From: SAR202 cluster bacterium
GTDB taxonomy: Bacteria > Chloroflexota > Dehalococcoidia > Lucifugimonadales > Lucifugimonadaceae
Direction of reading: 5' to 3'
DNA length: 64,000 bases
Assembly: GCA_009392285.1 (NCBI GenBank)
Contig: VFGU01000012.1
Span: 100,045 to 164,044 of the forward strand
Part shown: piece after piece, positions 17,787-52,665 of the stretch
Numbering within the stretch: the stretch's first letter is position 1
Layout of the letters: each line of letters starts with the position of its first letter
Translations under genes and position numbers: made by a program
The notes under the pieces: generated by a model
Told to the model about the DNA's origin: nothing
The model's input: only the letters and a program-made list of their open reading frames with translations
Databases searched by the model: none

Positions 17787-19043
17787 ATGAAACCTCAAAG
17801 AATATCTTCTGAACTTCTAGAAGTAAAAAAAGCTCAAGATATAATTTTTTCGAATTTTTCCAAACTCGATTCTACTGAAGTATCTTTAATTGATGCTCAA
17901 AATTTTGTATTGAGTAAAGACATATTAGCCCCTTTTGATTTACCTGAAAAAGATAATTCTGCAATGGATGGTTTTGCTGTTCAGCATAAAGATATTGTTG
18001 AAGAAAAAATAACTGAGTTGGAAGTAATAGGGAGAGTAGGAGCAGAAAATAGGGCAGAAATTTCTTTGGGTAAAGGGCAGGCAATTAGAATAATGACTGG
18101 CGGAGAAATACCTAAAGGGTCTGACTGTGTAGTGCCTTTTGAAAATACTAATAGTGGACCTATGAGAGGAATAGACTATCCCAAAAAAGTAACTATAAAT
18201 GAAGCTGTGAATTTAGGGGATAATATTAGGAAGTCAGGTTTGGATTACAAAAAGGGTTCATTGGTCTTGAAAGCAGGTACTTTGCTCAATCCGCCTGCTC
18301 TAGGAGTTATTGCTTCATTTGGTATAAATAAATTATCTGTAATTAGAAAACCTATTATCTCGGTTATATCTACAGGGAACGAAGTAGTTATGCCTGGAGA
18401 TGATAGAAAGCCCGGACAAATATATGATTCAAATTCATTTATTATATCTTCTGCTGTTAAAGAGGCAGGCGGAGATGTGAAACTATTAGATATTACTGGC
18501 GACAGAAAAGAAGACATAGAAGCAGCTATTTCATCTTGCAAAGAGAGTGACCTTGTTATTTCCATAGGAGGAGTATCTAAGGGTGATTTTGACTTAATAA
18601 AGGATGTCTTGTCAGAAAAAGGAGAGATTAATTTCTGGGGCATTAATATGAAACCAGGAAAGCCTCTAACTTTTGGAAGTTTGGATTTAGAAGATAATAA
18701 TGTTTTTCAATTAGGATTGCCAGGGAATCCTGTAAGTGCATATGTTTGCTTTGAATTATTTGTTAGGCCAATTATCTTAAAAATGATGGGTGTTAATGAA
18801 ATTATGAGAAAAAAAATTAAGGCCAGAATAACAGAAGATATTACCAATCATGATGGAAGAAGAATGTATGTAAGAGTCAGGATAATTGAGAAAAAAAATG
18901 AATATATTGCTGAGATTTACAAAAATCAAAATTCAAACATACTTAGTTCTTTGGTATTTGCAGATGGGCTTGCAATTTGTCCTGAGGACTGTAAAGTAGT
19001 TAAGTCAGGAGACGAGTTAGAAGTATTATTATTGAGAGGTTGA
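17787..19043 (+). CDS. moeA: Molybdopterin molybdenumtransferase
   Basis: DNSAMDGFAV, IMTGGEIPKGSDCVVPFE, STGNEV, GLPGNPVSAYVCFELFV. Confidence 0.94.
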   Translation: MKPQRISSELLEVKKAQDIIFSNFSKLDSTEVSLIDAQNFVLSKDILAPFDLPEKDNSAMDGFAVQHKDIVEEKITELEVIGRVGAENRAEISLGKGQAIRIMTGGEIPKGSDCVVPFENTNSGPMRGIDYPKKVTINEAVNLGDNIRKSGLDYKKGSLVLKAGTLLNPPALGVIASFGINKLSVIRKPIISVISTGNEVVMPGDDRKPGQIYDSNSFIISSAVKEAGGDVKLLDITGDRKEDIEAAISSCKESDLVISIGGVSKGDFDLIKDVLSEKGEINFWGINMKPGKPLTFGSLDLEDNNVFQLGLPGNPVSAYVCFELFVRPIILKMMGVNEIMRKKIKARITEDITNHDGRRMYVRVRIIEKKNEYIAEIYKNQNSNILSSLVFADGLAICPEDCKVVKSGDELEVLLLRG

Positions 19044-24232: not shown

Positions 24233-24856
24233 GTGAATATAATTTTAGCAACTCAAAATAAAGGAAAAGTAGAGGAATTTAATAGAATTTTTGCAGACTA
24301 TTCTGTTGAATTGTCTAGTATTTTTGATTATGGAATTACTTTAGAGCCTGAAGAAACCGGTAATACCTTTTCTGAGAATGCACAAATCAAACTAGAGTAT
24401 TATCTAGAAGCTATTCAAAATAATAAGGCTTATGACAGTTCTCAAAAAAATCTTCTTCTAGCAGAGGATTCCGGCATAGAAATAAAAGCCTTAAATGGTG
24501 AGCCGGGTGTATTATCAGCACGATATGGGGGAGAAGGTTTAAATAGTACAGATCGAAATAATCTTATATTAGAAAAAATGAAAGATGTTGTTCCCGAGAA
24601 TAGAAAAGCAAGATTTGTATGCTGTATAAAGATTGTAGATATTGAAGAGAATATAAAATATGAATTTATAGGATATTCGGAAGGGTTGATCATGGATAAT
24701 ATTTATGGGTCAAGAGGTTTTGGATATGATCCAATTTTTAAGCCATTGGGTTACAATGTCTCAATGGGTAGTTTAGAGCCTCAAGTTAAGGATAAAATTA
24801 GCCATAGAGGTTTGGCGAGTAAAAAATTAATTAAAAAGATTTTAGATGAAAGATAA
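24233..24856 (+). CDS. rdgB: XTP/dITP diphosphatase (RdgB/HAM1)
   Basis: ILATQNKGKVEEF, LLAEDSGIEI, GEPGVLSARYGGEG, GFGYDPIF, SHRG; GTG start. Confidence 0.93.
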   Translation: MNIILATQNKGKVEEFNRIFADYSVELSSIFDYGITLEPEETGNTFSENAQIKLEYYLEAIQNNKAYDSSQKNLLLAEDSGIEIKALNGEPGVLSARYGGEGLNSTDRNNLILEKMKDVVPENRKARFVCCIKIVDIEENIKYEFIGYSEGLIMDNIYGSRGFGYDPIFKPLGYNVSMGSLEPQVKDKISHRGLASKKLIKKILDER

Positions 24857-25850
24857 ATTAAATAGAAAATTGACTGATTTGAGGATCTCTGTAACTGACA
24901 GGTGTAATTTTAGATGTCGATATTGTATGCCTGAAGAACTTTATGGGGAAGCTTACGAGTTCCTAAAAAAAGATCAAGTGTTGTCTTTTGAGGAAATAGT
25001 TAGGTTGACCAAAATATTTATTAAATTAGGTGTTAATAAGGTAAGACTTACAGGAGGAGAGCCCCTAGTAAGAAAAAACATTGAAACATTGATTTCGTCG
25101 ATTTCAAGTTTAGATGAGAGTGTTGATCTAGCAATGACAACTAATGGGTACCTTCTTAATAAATTTGCAAATATATTATTTAGCTCAGGATTAAAAAGGT
25201 TAACAATTAGTTTAGATTCTTTAGATAACGATATTTTTCAAAAAATGAGTGGAAAAAAGTTTAATGTGGATGATGTTTTAATGGGGATAAGTAGTGCTAA
25301 AAAAGCTGGATTTAAAAATATAAAAATTAATTCCGTAATTAAAAAAGGTATCAATGATGAGGGAATAATTGACTTGGTTGATTACTGTAAAAGAGAAGGG
25401 CACATTTTAAGATTCATAGAGTATATGGATGTTGGAACGCTGAATTCTTGGAACAGAGGATCTGTTTTAGATTCAAAAAAAATAATAGATATAATCTCGA
25501 AAAAATATCCAATTCATCCAGTAAGCAAGAACTATTCATCTGAGGTTGCAGATAGATATAAATTTGATGACGGAGAAGGAGAATTAGGATTTATATCATC
25601 GGTATCCAATCCATTCTGTATGTCTTGCACAAGATCTAGGATTACTGCTGACGGAAAATTTGTGACCTGTCTTTTTTCAAACAAGGGGTTAGATTTAAAG
25701 AAGCATTTGAGAAGTAGAGCCACAGACGAAGACATTTTAAATTTAATATCAGAAAATTGGTTAATTCGAAATGATCAGTATTCTTTGGATAGGTCTTTAG
25801 AAAAAGGTAAAGTTAAGGATAAAATTGAAATGTTCCAATTAGGAGGTTAA
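24846..25850 (+). CDS. moaA: GTP 3',8-cyclase MoaA (radical SAM)
   Basis: LRISVTDRCNFRCRYCMPEE, RLTGGEPLVRKNIE, C-terminal PFCMSCTRSRITADGKFVTCLF. C-terminus GG normal. Confidence 0.95.
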   Translation: MKDKLNRKLTDLRISVTDRCNFRCRYCMPEELYGEAYEFLKKDQVLSFEEIVRLTKIFIKLGVNKVRLTGGEPLVRKNIETLISSISSLDESVDLAMTTNGYLLNKFANILFSSGLKRLTISLDSLDNDIFQKMSGKKFNVDDVLMGISSAKKAGFKNIKINSVIKKGINDEGIIDLVDYCKREGHILRFIEYMDVGTLNSWNRGSVLDSKKIIDIISKKYPIHPVSKNYSSEVADRYKFDDGEGELGFISSVSNPFCMSCTRSRITADGKFVTCLFSNKGLDLKKHLRSRATDEDILNLISENWLIRNDQYSLDRSLEKGKVKDKIEMFQLGG

Positions 25851-27085
25851 TCTTCCATTGGGTTATCAATTAAATCATTTTTCACCGACAAGAATGCATT
25901 ATCTAGAGCTTTTTTATTTATATAATTAGGTAGAACTATATCCTTCTCCCATCTTAAGACCGTTGCTCTTGATACGCCAACTTTTTTCCCAAAGTTAGTC
26001 CTAGAAAGATTTAATGATTTCCTCAGATTTGTTATTGAATTGGAGGTCCACTTAAAAATTGGAGTTATTTCAGTATTTTCCTTCACTTTTTTCTTTCCGG
26101 TAGTCATATGTTCTAGAAAATTATTAACATCCGATTTTGAACCTATTATTAAAGGAGTTCTTTGATGAAAATTCTCTGGCTCTATATCTAATATTTCTTT
26201 TTCAAGGTCAACAGCACTTCCGCCAGCAGATGTAAAAATAAGCGCAAATGGATTTGCCTCATACATTAATCTCAGTTTTCCATTTTGATTATTTTTATCC
26301 GAAGGGTAGACAAATATACCTCCATTAATTAGGGTCCTATGAGCATCAGCAACAAGAGAGCCAACATATCTTAATTTCTTATTTTTTGCGGAGGTGCCAC
26401 TCGGGTTTTTTGTATTAAGTAACCATTTTTTTATTTTATTATCCCAAATAGAAAAGTTTCCTTCATTTACCGAGTATATTGACCCTTTGTTTGGAACTTT
26501 AATTTCTGACCTTGATAGAAAATAATCATTTTTTTGGGGGTCCAGGGTAAATTCCGCGACTTTATTATTTGCGCATATTACGAATATATCTGAAGGACCA
26601 TAAAGTGAATAGCCTGCACTTATATAATATCTGCCAGATTTTATGAAACTAGATTTTCCATAATCTGTGTTTCTGATGATCCCAAAAATTGTACCTATAG
26701 GCATATTGACGCTAATATTGCTTGATCCATCTAAAGGGTCTGCTACCACCATAAATCTAGCACTAGAATTAAATATTTTGGGGTCTTTTAGTTCTTCGCT
26801 TGCATATCCAGCACAGGATGAATTTTTTGCTAAAATATCTACCAGTTTATCATTTGAAATTTGGTCTAATATTTGTACCTGCTCTCCTTGCACATTGGTT
26901 TTATCTAAAGAGCCTCTGATTTGCTTCAATCCGGTTACTCTAGTGTCCATTGCAATAAGTTTTGTTGCATCAGCGATTGATTTGATCACACTTGCAAGTT
27001 CATCGTTCTCTTCATTATTATCTTTTAATTCAGATTTAAGATAACTCTCTAGGTTTATATTTCTCATCTCTTGTCTTGGGCACAA
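25847..27085 (-). CDS. fbp: Class I fructose-1,6-bisphosphatase with C-terminal XRE/Cro-type HTH domain
   Basis: VVADPLDGSSNISVNMPIGTIFGI, RYVGSLVADAHRTLINGGIFVYPSD, then ITNLRKSLNLSRTNFGKKVGVSRATVLRWEKDIVLP. Start may be the internal Met at about 27067. Confidence 0.88.
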   Translation of the reverse strand: MCPRQEMRNINLESYLKSELKDNNEENDELASVIKSIADATKLIAMDTRVTGLKQIRGSLDKTNVQGEQVQILDQISNDKLVDILAKNSSCAGYASEELKDPKIFNSSARFMVVADPLDGSSNISVNMPIGTIFGIIRNTDYGKSSFIKSGRYYISAGYSLYGPSDIFVICANNKVAEFTLDPQKNDYFLSRSEIKVPNKGSIYSVNEGNFSIWDNKIKKWLLNTKNPSGTSAKNKKLRYVGSLVADAHRTLINGGIFVYPSDKNNQNGKLRLMYEANPFALIFTSAGGSAVDLEKEILDIEPENFHQRTPLIIGSKSDVNNFLEHMTTGKKKVKENTEITPIFKWTSNSITNLRKSLNLSRTNFGKKVGVSRATVLRWEKDIVLPNYINKKALDNAFLSVKNDLIDNPMED

Positions 27086-28082: not shown

Positions 28083-28958
28083 ATGATAACAATTTATACA
28101 GACGGGGCATGCTCTGGAAATCCAGGTTTAGGTGGATGGGGAGCTGTGATAATAAAGGAAGACGGAGAAGAAAGTTATTTCTCGGGATCCCAAGAAGATA
28201 CGACAAATAATCGTATGGAAATCCAAGCCGTCATTGAGGGTTTAGAGAATTCAAATTCTGATGAAGAAATAAGAATATTTTCGGACAGCACCTATGTAAT
28301 AAATACTCTAACAAAAAATTGGAAAAGAAATGCAAACCATGACCTGTGGTCAAGGCTAGATGATTTAGTTAAAGGGAGAAATATTAAATGGAATTGGGTC
28401 AAAGGTCACTCTGGGGATAAATACAATGATCTCGCAGACGAACTAGCAGTGAAAGCTATCGATTCTAAAAAAAAAGTAACTCAAAATAACCTAACTCATA
28501 TTGACGATTCTGGAAAATTGAAGATGGTTGATGTTTCTGAAAAAGAAATATCTGAGAGGTTGGCTATTGTTCAAGGTTTCGTTGTGATGAAAAAAGAAAC
28601 ACTAGAGATAATTAAGCAAGGAGAGTTAGATAAAGGAGATATAATAACTCTTGCTAGAACAGCGGGTATAACAGCCGCAAAATCTACTCCTACGCTGATT
28701 CCTTTGTGTCATACTATACCACTTTCTGAGATAAAAATTGAAATAGAATTTGAGGATAATTTACCTGGATTAAAAGTTACATGTATCACAAGAGCTGAAT
28801 GGAAAACAGGAGTAGAAATTGAAGCGTTTAATGGTGTGTCCATTGCGTGTGTGACTATTTATGATATGTGCAAAGCCATAGATAGATCAGCCTATATTTC
28901 TGAAATTAAGTTAATTAAAAAATCCGGTGGAAGTAGTGGGTTATTTGTTAGAGAGTAA
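28083..28958 (+). CDS. Ribonuclease HI - MoaC (cyclic pyranopterin monophosphate synthase) fusion
   Basis: Residues 1 to about 130: IYTDGACSGNPGLGGWGAV, NRMEIQAVIEGL, WVKGHSGDKYNDLAD. Remainder: LTHIDDSGKLKMVDVS, AGITAAKSTPTLIPLCHTIPLS, KTGVEIEAFNGVSIACVTIYDMCKAI. One uninterrupted frame. Confidence 0.92.
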   Translation: MITIYTDGACSGNPGLGGWGAVIIKEDGEESYFSGSQEDTTNNRMEIQAVIEGLENSNSDEEIRIFSDSTYVINTLTKNWKRNANHDLWSRLDDLVKGRNIKWNWVKGHSGDKYNDLADELAVKAIDSKKKVTQNNLTHIDDSGKLKMVDVSEKEISERLAIVQGFVVMKKETLEIIKQGELDKGDIITLARTAGITAAKSTPTLIPLCHTIPLSEIKIEIEFEDNLPGLKVTCITRAEWKTGVEIEAFNGVSIACVTIYDMCKAIDRSAYISEIKLIKKSGGSSGLFVRE

Positions 28959-29005: not shown

Positions 29006-29081
29006 GGCAACGTAGCTCAGGGGTTAGAGCGGGGTCTTCATAAGGCCTAGGTCGTAGGTTCAAATCCTACCGTTGCCACCA
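29006..29081 (+). tRNA. tRNA-Met (CAT), elongator-type
   Basis: Acceptor GGCAACG/CGTTGCC, anticodon loop TTCATAA, T-arm GTAGGTTCAAATCCTAC, encoded CCA; paired G1-C72 argues against initiator. Confidence 0.93.
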
Positions 29082-50391: not shown

Positions 50392-52665
50392 ATGGTATCA
50401 ACTTCAGAGAATAAAAATTATAAAGTAATTGGCACAAGGCCTATAAGGCATGATGGTTATGACAAAGTTACTGGAAGAGCACAGTATGGTGCAGATATTA
50501 AACTTCCTGGAATGTTAATAGGGGCAGTTCTTAGAAGTCCTTATGCACATGCAAAAATTAAATCAATAGATACTTCTGAAGCCGAGAAGATGGATGGAGT
50601 TTTCGCAGTTATGACTTCAAAAGATTTACCTAGGTTGGGTGATGTAGTTAGAGGAAACTCAGAAGAATCGGGATCAGAAAAACATCTAAGTGAAAATGTT
50701 ATGGCCTTCGATAAAGTTTTATATAAAGGTCATGTAGTGGCAGGTGTTGCCGCAAAAGATCAAAATACTGCATTTGAAGCAGTAAAAAAAATTAAGGTAG
50801 ATTATGAAGTTTTAAAACCAGTTATAAATGTTGACCAAGCAATGGCGAAAGATGCTCCAATTTTACACGAAGATTACTCTGGAGATCATTTAGGAAAAAA
50901 AGTAAAAAATAGTAATATTGCTGCTCATGCAAGGCATGAGATTGGAGATATTGATGATGGCTTCAAGAAGTCAGATTTAGTAGTGGAAAAAGAAGTTGAT
51001 ATGCAGACTGTTCATCAGGGTTATATAGAACCTCATACTGGTACAGCAGTGTGGGATGAGGAGGATAGAGTTAAAGTTTGGACAAGTACCCAAGGATCAT
51101 TTTCTGTTAGAGATAGTGTATCTAAAGTATTAGAATTAGATGTATCTAGAGTTAAAGTGACTCCTATGGAGATAGGAGGAGGTTTTGGCGGAAAAATTCC
51201 TATTTACTTGGAGCCAATAGCAGCTGTGCTTTCAAAAAAGACTAGAAGACCTGTTAAAGCAATGATGAGCAGGACGGATGTATTCGATGCCACTGGCCCT
51301 GGCCCTGGCGGTAAAGTAAAAGTAAAAATTGGAATTGACTCAGAAGGAAAAATTTTAGCAGCATATGCTGATATAAGACTTGAAGCAGGTGCATACCCTG
51401 AAGCATTCATTGAAGCGGCAGCTAAGTGTGTGTTTTCTTGCTATGATGTTCCTTCTATGAAGATTGATGCTTATGATGTTTTAGTAAATAAGCCAAGTTC
51501 TGCCCCTTATAGAGCGCCAGCCTCCCCTCAAGTTGCATTTGCTACTGAAACAGTTGTTGACGAAATTTGTGAGATCAAAGGTTACGATCCTATTGACTTT
51601 AGACTCAAGAATGTTGCAGAGAAGGGCACAAGAACAGCTTTAGGCCCTAAATACAGAACTATTGGATTAAAAGAGTGTTTAGAGGCTGCAAAAAACTCTG
51701 ACCATTGGAAATCAAATCTAGATTCAAACCCAAGTCCGGGCAAGAAAAGAGGAAGAGGTATAGCAAGTGGCTATTGGTTTAATATCGGATTCAAGTCTTC
51801 CGTAAATCTTTCACTTAATCCTGACGGCAAAGTAGCACTTACTGAAGGATCAACTGATATTGGAGGATCAAGAGCTTCGATTGCTATGCAGGCAGCTGAG
51901 GTGTTGGGAATTCCCGCGGAAGATGTAAGACCTTCTGTTGTAGATACAGATAGCATTGGGATTACTGATGTTACTGGAGGCAGCCGTACTACTTACGCAA
52001 CAGGATATGCTGCATACAATGCTGCCCATAAATTAATAGAAGAGATTATTGAGAAAGCTGCTTTGAAATGGGATATTAGCAAAGATCATATAGAATATTC
52101 TGATGGAATTGTGAAATCAAAAACTGATTCAGAGTTAAAAATGACATTGAAGGAAATTGCTGATGACCCTCCTGGAGGACCTATAGTTTCATCAGCATCA
52201 GTTGACTTAGAAGAAGCCGGAGGTGGTTTTGCAGTTCATATTGCAGACCTAGAAATTGATGAAGAAACTGGGAAGACAGATGTCGTAAACTATACTGCCA
52301 TTCAAGATGTTGGAAAAGCAATTCACCCTTCTTATGTTGAAGGTCAGATGCAAGGAGGGGCTGCTCAAGGAATAGGATGGGCCTTGAATGAAGAATATTT
52401 TATGAACGAAGATGGAGTAATGCTTAACTCAAGTTACTTGGATTACAGAATGCCTATAGCACTAGATCTTCCTATGATTGATACTATTATGATTGAAGTA
52501 CCAAGCGAGGAACATCCTTATGGAGTTAGAGGAGTAGGTGAACCTCCTATTGTTCCGCCAGTTCCAGCTATTGGAAATGCAATCAATGATGCTTTAGGGT
52601 TGAGGCTACTTAGCACTCCTATGAAACCTTCTAAGATTACAGAAGCTTTAAAAAGAAAAAAATAA
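50392..52665 (+). CDS. Molybdenum hydroxylase molybdopterin-binding (large) subunit, xanthine dehydrogenase family
   Basis: RHDGYDKVTGRAQYGADI, GGGFGGKIPIYLEP, active-site loop SAPYRAPASPQ, GGSRTTYATG, GVGEPPIVPPVPAIGNAI. Confidence 0.93.
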   Translation: MVSTSENKNYKVIGTRPIRHDGYDKVTGRAQYGADIKLPGMLIGAVLRSPYAHAKIKSIDTSEAEKMDGVFAVMTSKDLPRLGDVVRGNSEESGSEKHLSENVMAFDKVLYKGHVVAGVAAKDQNTAFEAVKKIKVDYEVLKPVINVDQAMAKDAPILHEDYSGDHLGKKVKNSNIAAHARHEIGDIDDGFKKSDLVVEKEVDMQTVHQGYIEPHTGTAVWDEEDRVKVWTSTQGSFSVRDSVSKVLELDVSRVKVTPMEIGGGFGGKIPIYLEPIAAVLSKKTRRPVKAMMSRTDVFDATGPGPGGKVKVKIGIDSEGKILAAYADIRLEAGAYPEAFIEAAAKCVFSCYDVPSMKIDAYDVLVNKPSSAPYRAPASPQVAFATETVVDEICEIKGYDPIDFRLKNVAEKGTRTALGPKYRTIGLKECLEAAKNSDHWKSNLDSNPSPGKKRGRGIASGYWFNIGFKSSVNLSLNPDGKVALTEGSTDIGGSRASIAMQAAEVLGIPAEDVRPSVVDTDSIGITDVTGGSRTTYATGYAAYNAAHKLIEEIIEKAALKWDISKDHIEYSDGIVKSKTDSELKMTLKEIADDPPGGPIVSSASVDLEEAGGGFAVHIADLEIDEETGKTDVVNYTAIQDVGKAIHPSYVEGQMQGGAAQGIGWALNEEYFMNEDGVMLNSSYLDYRMPIALDLPMIDTIMIEVPSEEHPYGVRGVGEPPIVPPVPAIGNAINDALGLRLLSTPMKPSKITEALKRKK

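Follow-up and report, generated by a model that had tools for sequence, protein, structure and literature searches.

An RNase HI–MoaC fusion gene of SAR202 bacteria (phylum Chloroflexota) and its conserved nine-adenine joint in one genus

The window analyzed here is a stretch of 64,000 nucleotides of contig VFGU01000012.1 (assembly GCA_009392285.1, positions 100,045 to 164,044 of the forward strand) from a SAR202 cluster bacterium, the genome of which comprises 751 kb and is 56% complete. The features of the window that bear on the present analysis are the following.

28083..28958, + strand: rnhA-moaC fusion gene, a single open reading frame of 291 amino acids with both Pfam domains above cut-off
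28086..28460, + strand: RNase HI domain, residues 2-126, with D7/E46/D68/H109 kept and the basic protrusion absent
28467..28475, + strand: run of nine adenines (A9), codons 129-131 (KKK), a candidate slippage site present in 8 of 8 species in varying codon phase
28477..28479, + strand: TAA reached at once when one A is lost, giving the protein end ...DSKKK (read from the sequence)
28487..28489, + strand: TAA four codons on when one A is gained, giving the protein end ...KKKSNSK (read from the sequence)
28491..28955, + strand: MoaC domain, residues 137-291, complete from LTHIDDSG (Pfam, NCBIfam and alignment with E. coli MoaC)
24846..25850, + strand: moaA, which acts with MoaC in the first step of the molybdenum cofactor pathway (Radical_SAM and Mob_synth_C)
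17787..19043, + strand: moeA, a later step of molybdenum cofactor synthesis (MoeA_N, MoCF_biosynth and MoeA_C)
50392..52665, + strand: molybdopterin-binding oxidoreductase, a cofactor user (MoCoBD_1; match G000:C12:150952-151659 inside the open reading frame)

The fusion gene starts with an ATG and forms a single open frame from 28083 to 28958, in which residues 2-126 match the RNase_H family (PF00075, E=8e-36) and residues 148-283 match MoaC (PF01967, E=9e-50). The NCBIfam MoaC subfamily model TIGR00581 covers residues 134-290 with a score of 169.1 bits against a cut-off of 141.5, and the alignment with E. coli MoaC begins at about residue 135-136, where LTHIDDSG faces LTHINAAG; the N-terminus of MoaC, including the LTHI-D motif, is therefore complete. 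The RNase half contains the catalytic D/E/D/H/D set aligned with D10/E48/D70/H124/D134 of E. coli RNase HI, with D7, E46, D68, H109 and the last Asp all retained, and the MoaC half retains K184, H210, E245, E247, D261, K264 and K280, a set of K, H, E, E, D, K and K that is invariant across 38 fusions. Each half thus has the fold and the catalytic residues of its E. coli counterpart, although in E. coli the two proteins are encoded by separate genes and RNase HI possesses a basic protrusion. Both halves of the fusion are probably functional, and the MoaC part is predicted to form a hexamer and to synthesize cyclic pyranopterin monophosphate. In the AlphaFold model, both domains are well modelled (mean pLDDT 88.7), but how they are oriented to each other is uncertain (pTM 0.55); a helix from the RNase reaches residue 134, passing through the KKK at the joint.

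The first-pass annotation had described this gene as an in-frame fusion of RNase HI with a complete MoaC that keeps the CHTIPL and KTGVEIEA core; both claims hold, given one open reading frame with both Pfam domains in eight species and a full-length MoaC domain with intact active-site residues. It had also pointed to 28470-28490 as the zone where a stop or a frameshift would undo the fusion. This zone overlaps the A9 run at 28467-28475, and the assemblies of all eight species stay in frame there. A sequencing or assembly error at A9 is ruled out by the agreement of these eight separate assemblies, one of which is the single-cell genome AG-893-A15.

The codons between the last RNase helix and LTHI in the window gene contain no ATG, GTG or TTG. 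The nearest alternatives are a GTG at 28449 (codon 123, within the RNase helix) and a TTG at 28518 (codon 146), both lost in the sister species, and an ATG at 28524 (codon 148), from which a MoaC would miss H139 and G144, residues that are invariant in the 38 fusions. The earlier statement that MoaC has no start of its own at the junction is thus upheld. Separate translation of MoaC from the internal ATG at 28524 or the TTG at 28518 would find some support in the presence of the ATG of MVDV in most relatives and in an ATG located right before the LTH motif in some other fused genera. However, the MVDV start comes at the cost of the two conserved residues, and most species of the genus lack any start that would keep the whole MoaC N-terminus while shedding most of the RNase, the exception being L007, with an ATG just after A9. 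An independent MoaC start is accordingly unlikely on sequence grounds, and we consider this alternative the least probable of those discussed here.

Among ten genomes of the genus, the gene was found in eight species, always as the fusion, and the other two genomes are incomplete. In the wider set, which the earlier proposal to map proteins combining RNase_H and MoaC on taxonomy called for, 70 genomes in all (that of the window and 69 others) encode the two domains in one frame. They come from many families of a single Chloroflexota class (Dehalococcoidia/SAR202), among them the majority of the families of the order and several from elsewhere in the class, and the fused type without protrusion spans 49 genera in 34 families. 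A profile covering the two domains, run against 399 evenly sampled Chloroflexota genomes, matched across both in eight members of the class and in none of the 339 genomes from outside it (very long linkers could be missed by this profile), which speaks against a distribution throughout the phylum; the 69 further fused genomes rule out a one-off event. The fusion is thus real, as the first-pass annotation held, but less isolated than assumed there, being a lineage-wide architecture. No RNase HI-MoaC fusion was found in the literature searched. A frameshift suspected inside rnhA of L173 and L220 was dismissed when the split profile hit proved to lie in one frame. Neither domain has a second match in near-complete genomes with the fusion, such as G011, G163, G055, G359 and G375, so that, as far as the genomes show, the gene would yield a bifunctional protein that is both the only RNase HI and the only MoaC of the cell.

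The basic protrusion of RNase HI, an enzyme that removes RNA from DNA, holds the RNA/DNA hybrid. Measured against E. coli RNase HI, the RNase of the window has 14 amino acids where the E. coli enzyme has 27, and its model contains helices at 70-78 and 86-96 with no helix between them; the protrusion is absent. Two types of RNase are found among the proteins compared, one with the protrusion (28-31 amino acids in that stretch) and one without it (mostly 14). The type without the protrusion accounts for 64 of the 69 fused RNases and for 10 of the 33 unfused neighbours, the remaining 23 of which carry it. In a tree built without the protrusion columns, the protrusion type forms one clade that includes E. 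coli (support 100); with a single change of protrusion state over the whole tree, the association between protrusion and fusion rests on few independent events. The exception is genus g10, where an RNase of the protrusion type, nested among unfused ones, was fused separately. In the same genus (L178, L191, L207, L214 and L158), a protein with two RNase H-like domains is encoded directly upstream of the fusion, which makes three RNase H domains in a row, and in L178 the first domain of this upstream protein looks degenerate.

The closest parallel to this architecture is the RNase HI-CobC protein (Rv2228c, MSMEG_4305 and SCO2299; PRK07238), in which an N-terminal RNase HI is likewise followed by a C-terminal cofactor-pathway enzyme; it is confined to one lineage, has a variable linker and, in Rv2228c, also lacks the basic protrusion (PMC7466739). 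The partner and the lineage are different, CobC of the B12 pathway there versus MoaC of the molybdenum cofactor pathway here: the window protein scores 53.5 with the PRK07238 model, far below the cut-off of 326, and its C-terminal half is MoaC, with no histidine phosphatase (CobC) at the C-terminus. The RNase of Rv2228c is slower in isolation than within the full protein, and it has been suggested that CobC takes the place of the protrusion (PMC7466739); removal of CobC had little effect in vivo, and drift was argued (PMC7466739). MoaC itself is combined with a second domain in the MoaC/MoaB (PRK03604), MoaC/MOSC (PRK14499) and MoaC/MobA (PRK14500) proteins, but there the partner is a molybdenum-pathway protein or a related fold that follows MoaC, whereas here the RNase precedes it, and the window protein scores far below the cut-offs of all three models.

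The fusion seems to derive from an rnhA-moaC gene pair that is conserved and in many cases overlapping. In the wider set, 34 further genomes encode rnhA and moaC unfused but close to each other on the same strand, and in such relatives the two genes are often adjacent, often overlapping at ATGA or TAATG, and in different frames. In the unfused L195, rnhA ends with A8, TAA and then TGG, with the moaC ATG overlapping, such that one more A would fuse the two genes. In L007, which belongs to the genus of the window, A9 is followed by TGAATG: read with nine A's, RNase and MoaC are fused, and read with eight, the RNase stops at TGA and MoaC can begin at the overlapping ATG. A TAA also lies directly 3' of A9, out of frame, in L005, L006 and L114. 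Taken together, these layouts make the fusion in the genus look like the result of a one-base change in the A-run. The adjacent, coupled pair would thus have merged in frame, most likely through such a change beside the rnhA stop codon, judging from the present sequences. As a separate observation, the arrangement in L195 is the reverse of that in the window, in that +1 slippage there would generate the fusion.

A merger of this kind does not have to be useful. The stop codon might simply have been lost and the fusion fixed by drift, with the two domains working independently and A9 surviving because a slip still leaves a working RNase. Adjacent and overlapping genes merge easily, the linkers are poorly conserved, with about 4 to 75 residues separating the recognized domains, and the fused and unfused states require about 10 changes on the RNase tree; furthermore, RNase HI-CobC has been judged to be fixed by drift (PMC7466739). 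In addition, the fusion persists in two species of f7 g18 although their RNase domain appears to be dead, which indicates that such a loss is tolerated; the RNase reads A-E-D-P-W in L153:996-2037 and L157:974-1988 (reading-strand coordinates), where the His and both the first and the last Asp of the catalytic set are lost, and MoaC looks intact. Against drift stands the spread of the fusion over 34 families together with its second origin in g10. We regard neutral fusion as a serious rival, with a probability appreciably under one half; the adenine run at the joint bears on it as well.

Exactly nine A's occur at the joint in all eight species, in three codon phases and at varying distance from LTHI, and they are kept despite differing linker residues and protein identities among the eight species from 53 to 99%. 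No other A9 run is conserved between these species; for the other A9-containing genes with comparable orthologues, no orthologue keeps nine A's. We counted A-runs in the coding sequence of seven genomes of the genus (430 kb) and compared the counts with those in codon shuffles: 24 A9 runs were observed against 39 expected, and no run of A10 or longer against about 26. Seven of the 24 A9 runs are rnhA-moaC joints. In the coding sequence of the whole genus (L234-L253 and the window), runs of A6-A8 are more numerous than in codon shuffles (A8, 146 versus 94) and those of A9 and longer are depleted, with a sharp cut at nine; elsewhere, selection against A-runs commonly becomes visible from nine nucleotides (PMC1088944). 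A drifting run should also show A7, A8 and broken versions, yet A9 is found in eight of eight species, and a synonymous change of AAA to AAG, a codon that makes up 11-25% of Lys codons, would have ended it. Such constancy weighs against the neutral reading. It is tempered by phylogeny: the eight species with A9 perhaps represent only four independent lineages, and outside the genus A9 was seen once, in L114, whereas the sister of L114, L115, and all other fused genera looked at lack it.

The nine-A joint closely resembles that of dnaX of Thermus thermophilus, where a coding A9 gives the full-length protein when read as nine, the other frames stop just after it, slippage makes about 50% of the product short, and the short N-terminal product is useful by itself (PMC1088944). 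The gene is a different one, and in the present case slippage is a candidate from sequence. In all eight species, both shifted frames stop within 0-14 codons, immediately in one direction, with the out-of-frame stop beginning 0-1 nt past A9 in 7 of 7. We dropped these immediate stops as strong evidence because an immediate out-of-frame stop follows 43-50% of A8/A9 runs in the background, which makes them only weak evidence of programming. The same stops would serve -1 ribosomal frameshifting at the in-frame A AAA AAA, present in every phase of A9, which would give a short RNase without any transcriptional slippage. On the other hand, RNA folding in four species (the L008 stretch began 9 nt later than the other three) revealed no consistent unusual structure downstream (z from -0.3 to -1.95), and a run of nine exceeds what a ribosome needs and equals the known threshold of transcriptional slippage (PMC1088944). 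Ribosomal frameshifting is hence quite improbable, if slightly less so than a separate MoaC start. Some slippage at A9 is likely, and selection for it seems just short of an even bet. The first-pass annotation implied a single product; this assumption may be incomplete, because slippage at the conserved A9 would end the protein right after the RNase.

Besides moaA, moeA and the oxidoreductase of the window, molybdenum cofactor enzymes (the cofactor users) are encoded in 9 of the 10 genomes of the genus, and 7 of the 10 have RNase HII. The fusion gene is directly followed by tRNA-Met(CAT) (29006-29081, + strand). On the opposite strand, 25847-27085 is a single open reading frame combining fructose-1,6-bisphosphatase with a C-terminal HTH_3 DNA-binding domain, and an orthologue of equal length (1239 nt) occurs in G002.

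The reading that we favor, with a probability of roughly 0.5, is that the gene encodes a bifunctional RNase HI-MoaC derived from a merged coupled pair, in which MoaC aids the RNase and slippage at A9 provides free RNase HI. MoaC is a hexamer, and the fusion should therefore carry several RNase domains per particle. By analogy with the proposal made for CobC of Rv2228c, several RNase domains on one particle could restore the grip on the substrate, which would be the benefit of the fusion. At A9, the RNA polymerase would slip, such that unslipped mRNA yields the fusion and slipped mRNA yields free RNase HI; one gene would then make RNase in excess of MoaC, as the conservation of the run suggests. 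The full version of this scheme, with programmed slippage that sets the ratio of free RNase HI to fusion and a MoaC scaffold that replaces the protrusion through oligomerization, seems to us on the unlikely side.

SAR202 is an abundant, uncultured group of the ocean, and the A9 at the joint is a clean candidate for dnaX-like transcriptional slippage in these bacteria, through which the cell may also make the RNase alone. The actinobacterial RNase HI-CobC was the first case in which an RNase HI without the protrusion is joined to an enzyme of cofactor synthesis; the present fusion adds a second one from an unrelated lineage, and as such it can be used to test whether fusions of this kind are fixed by drift or stabilize a weak RNase.
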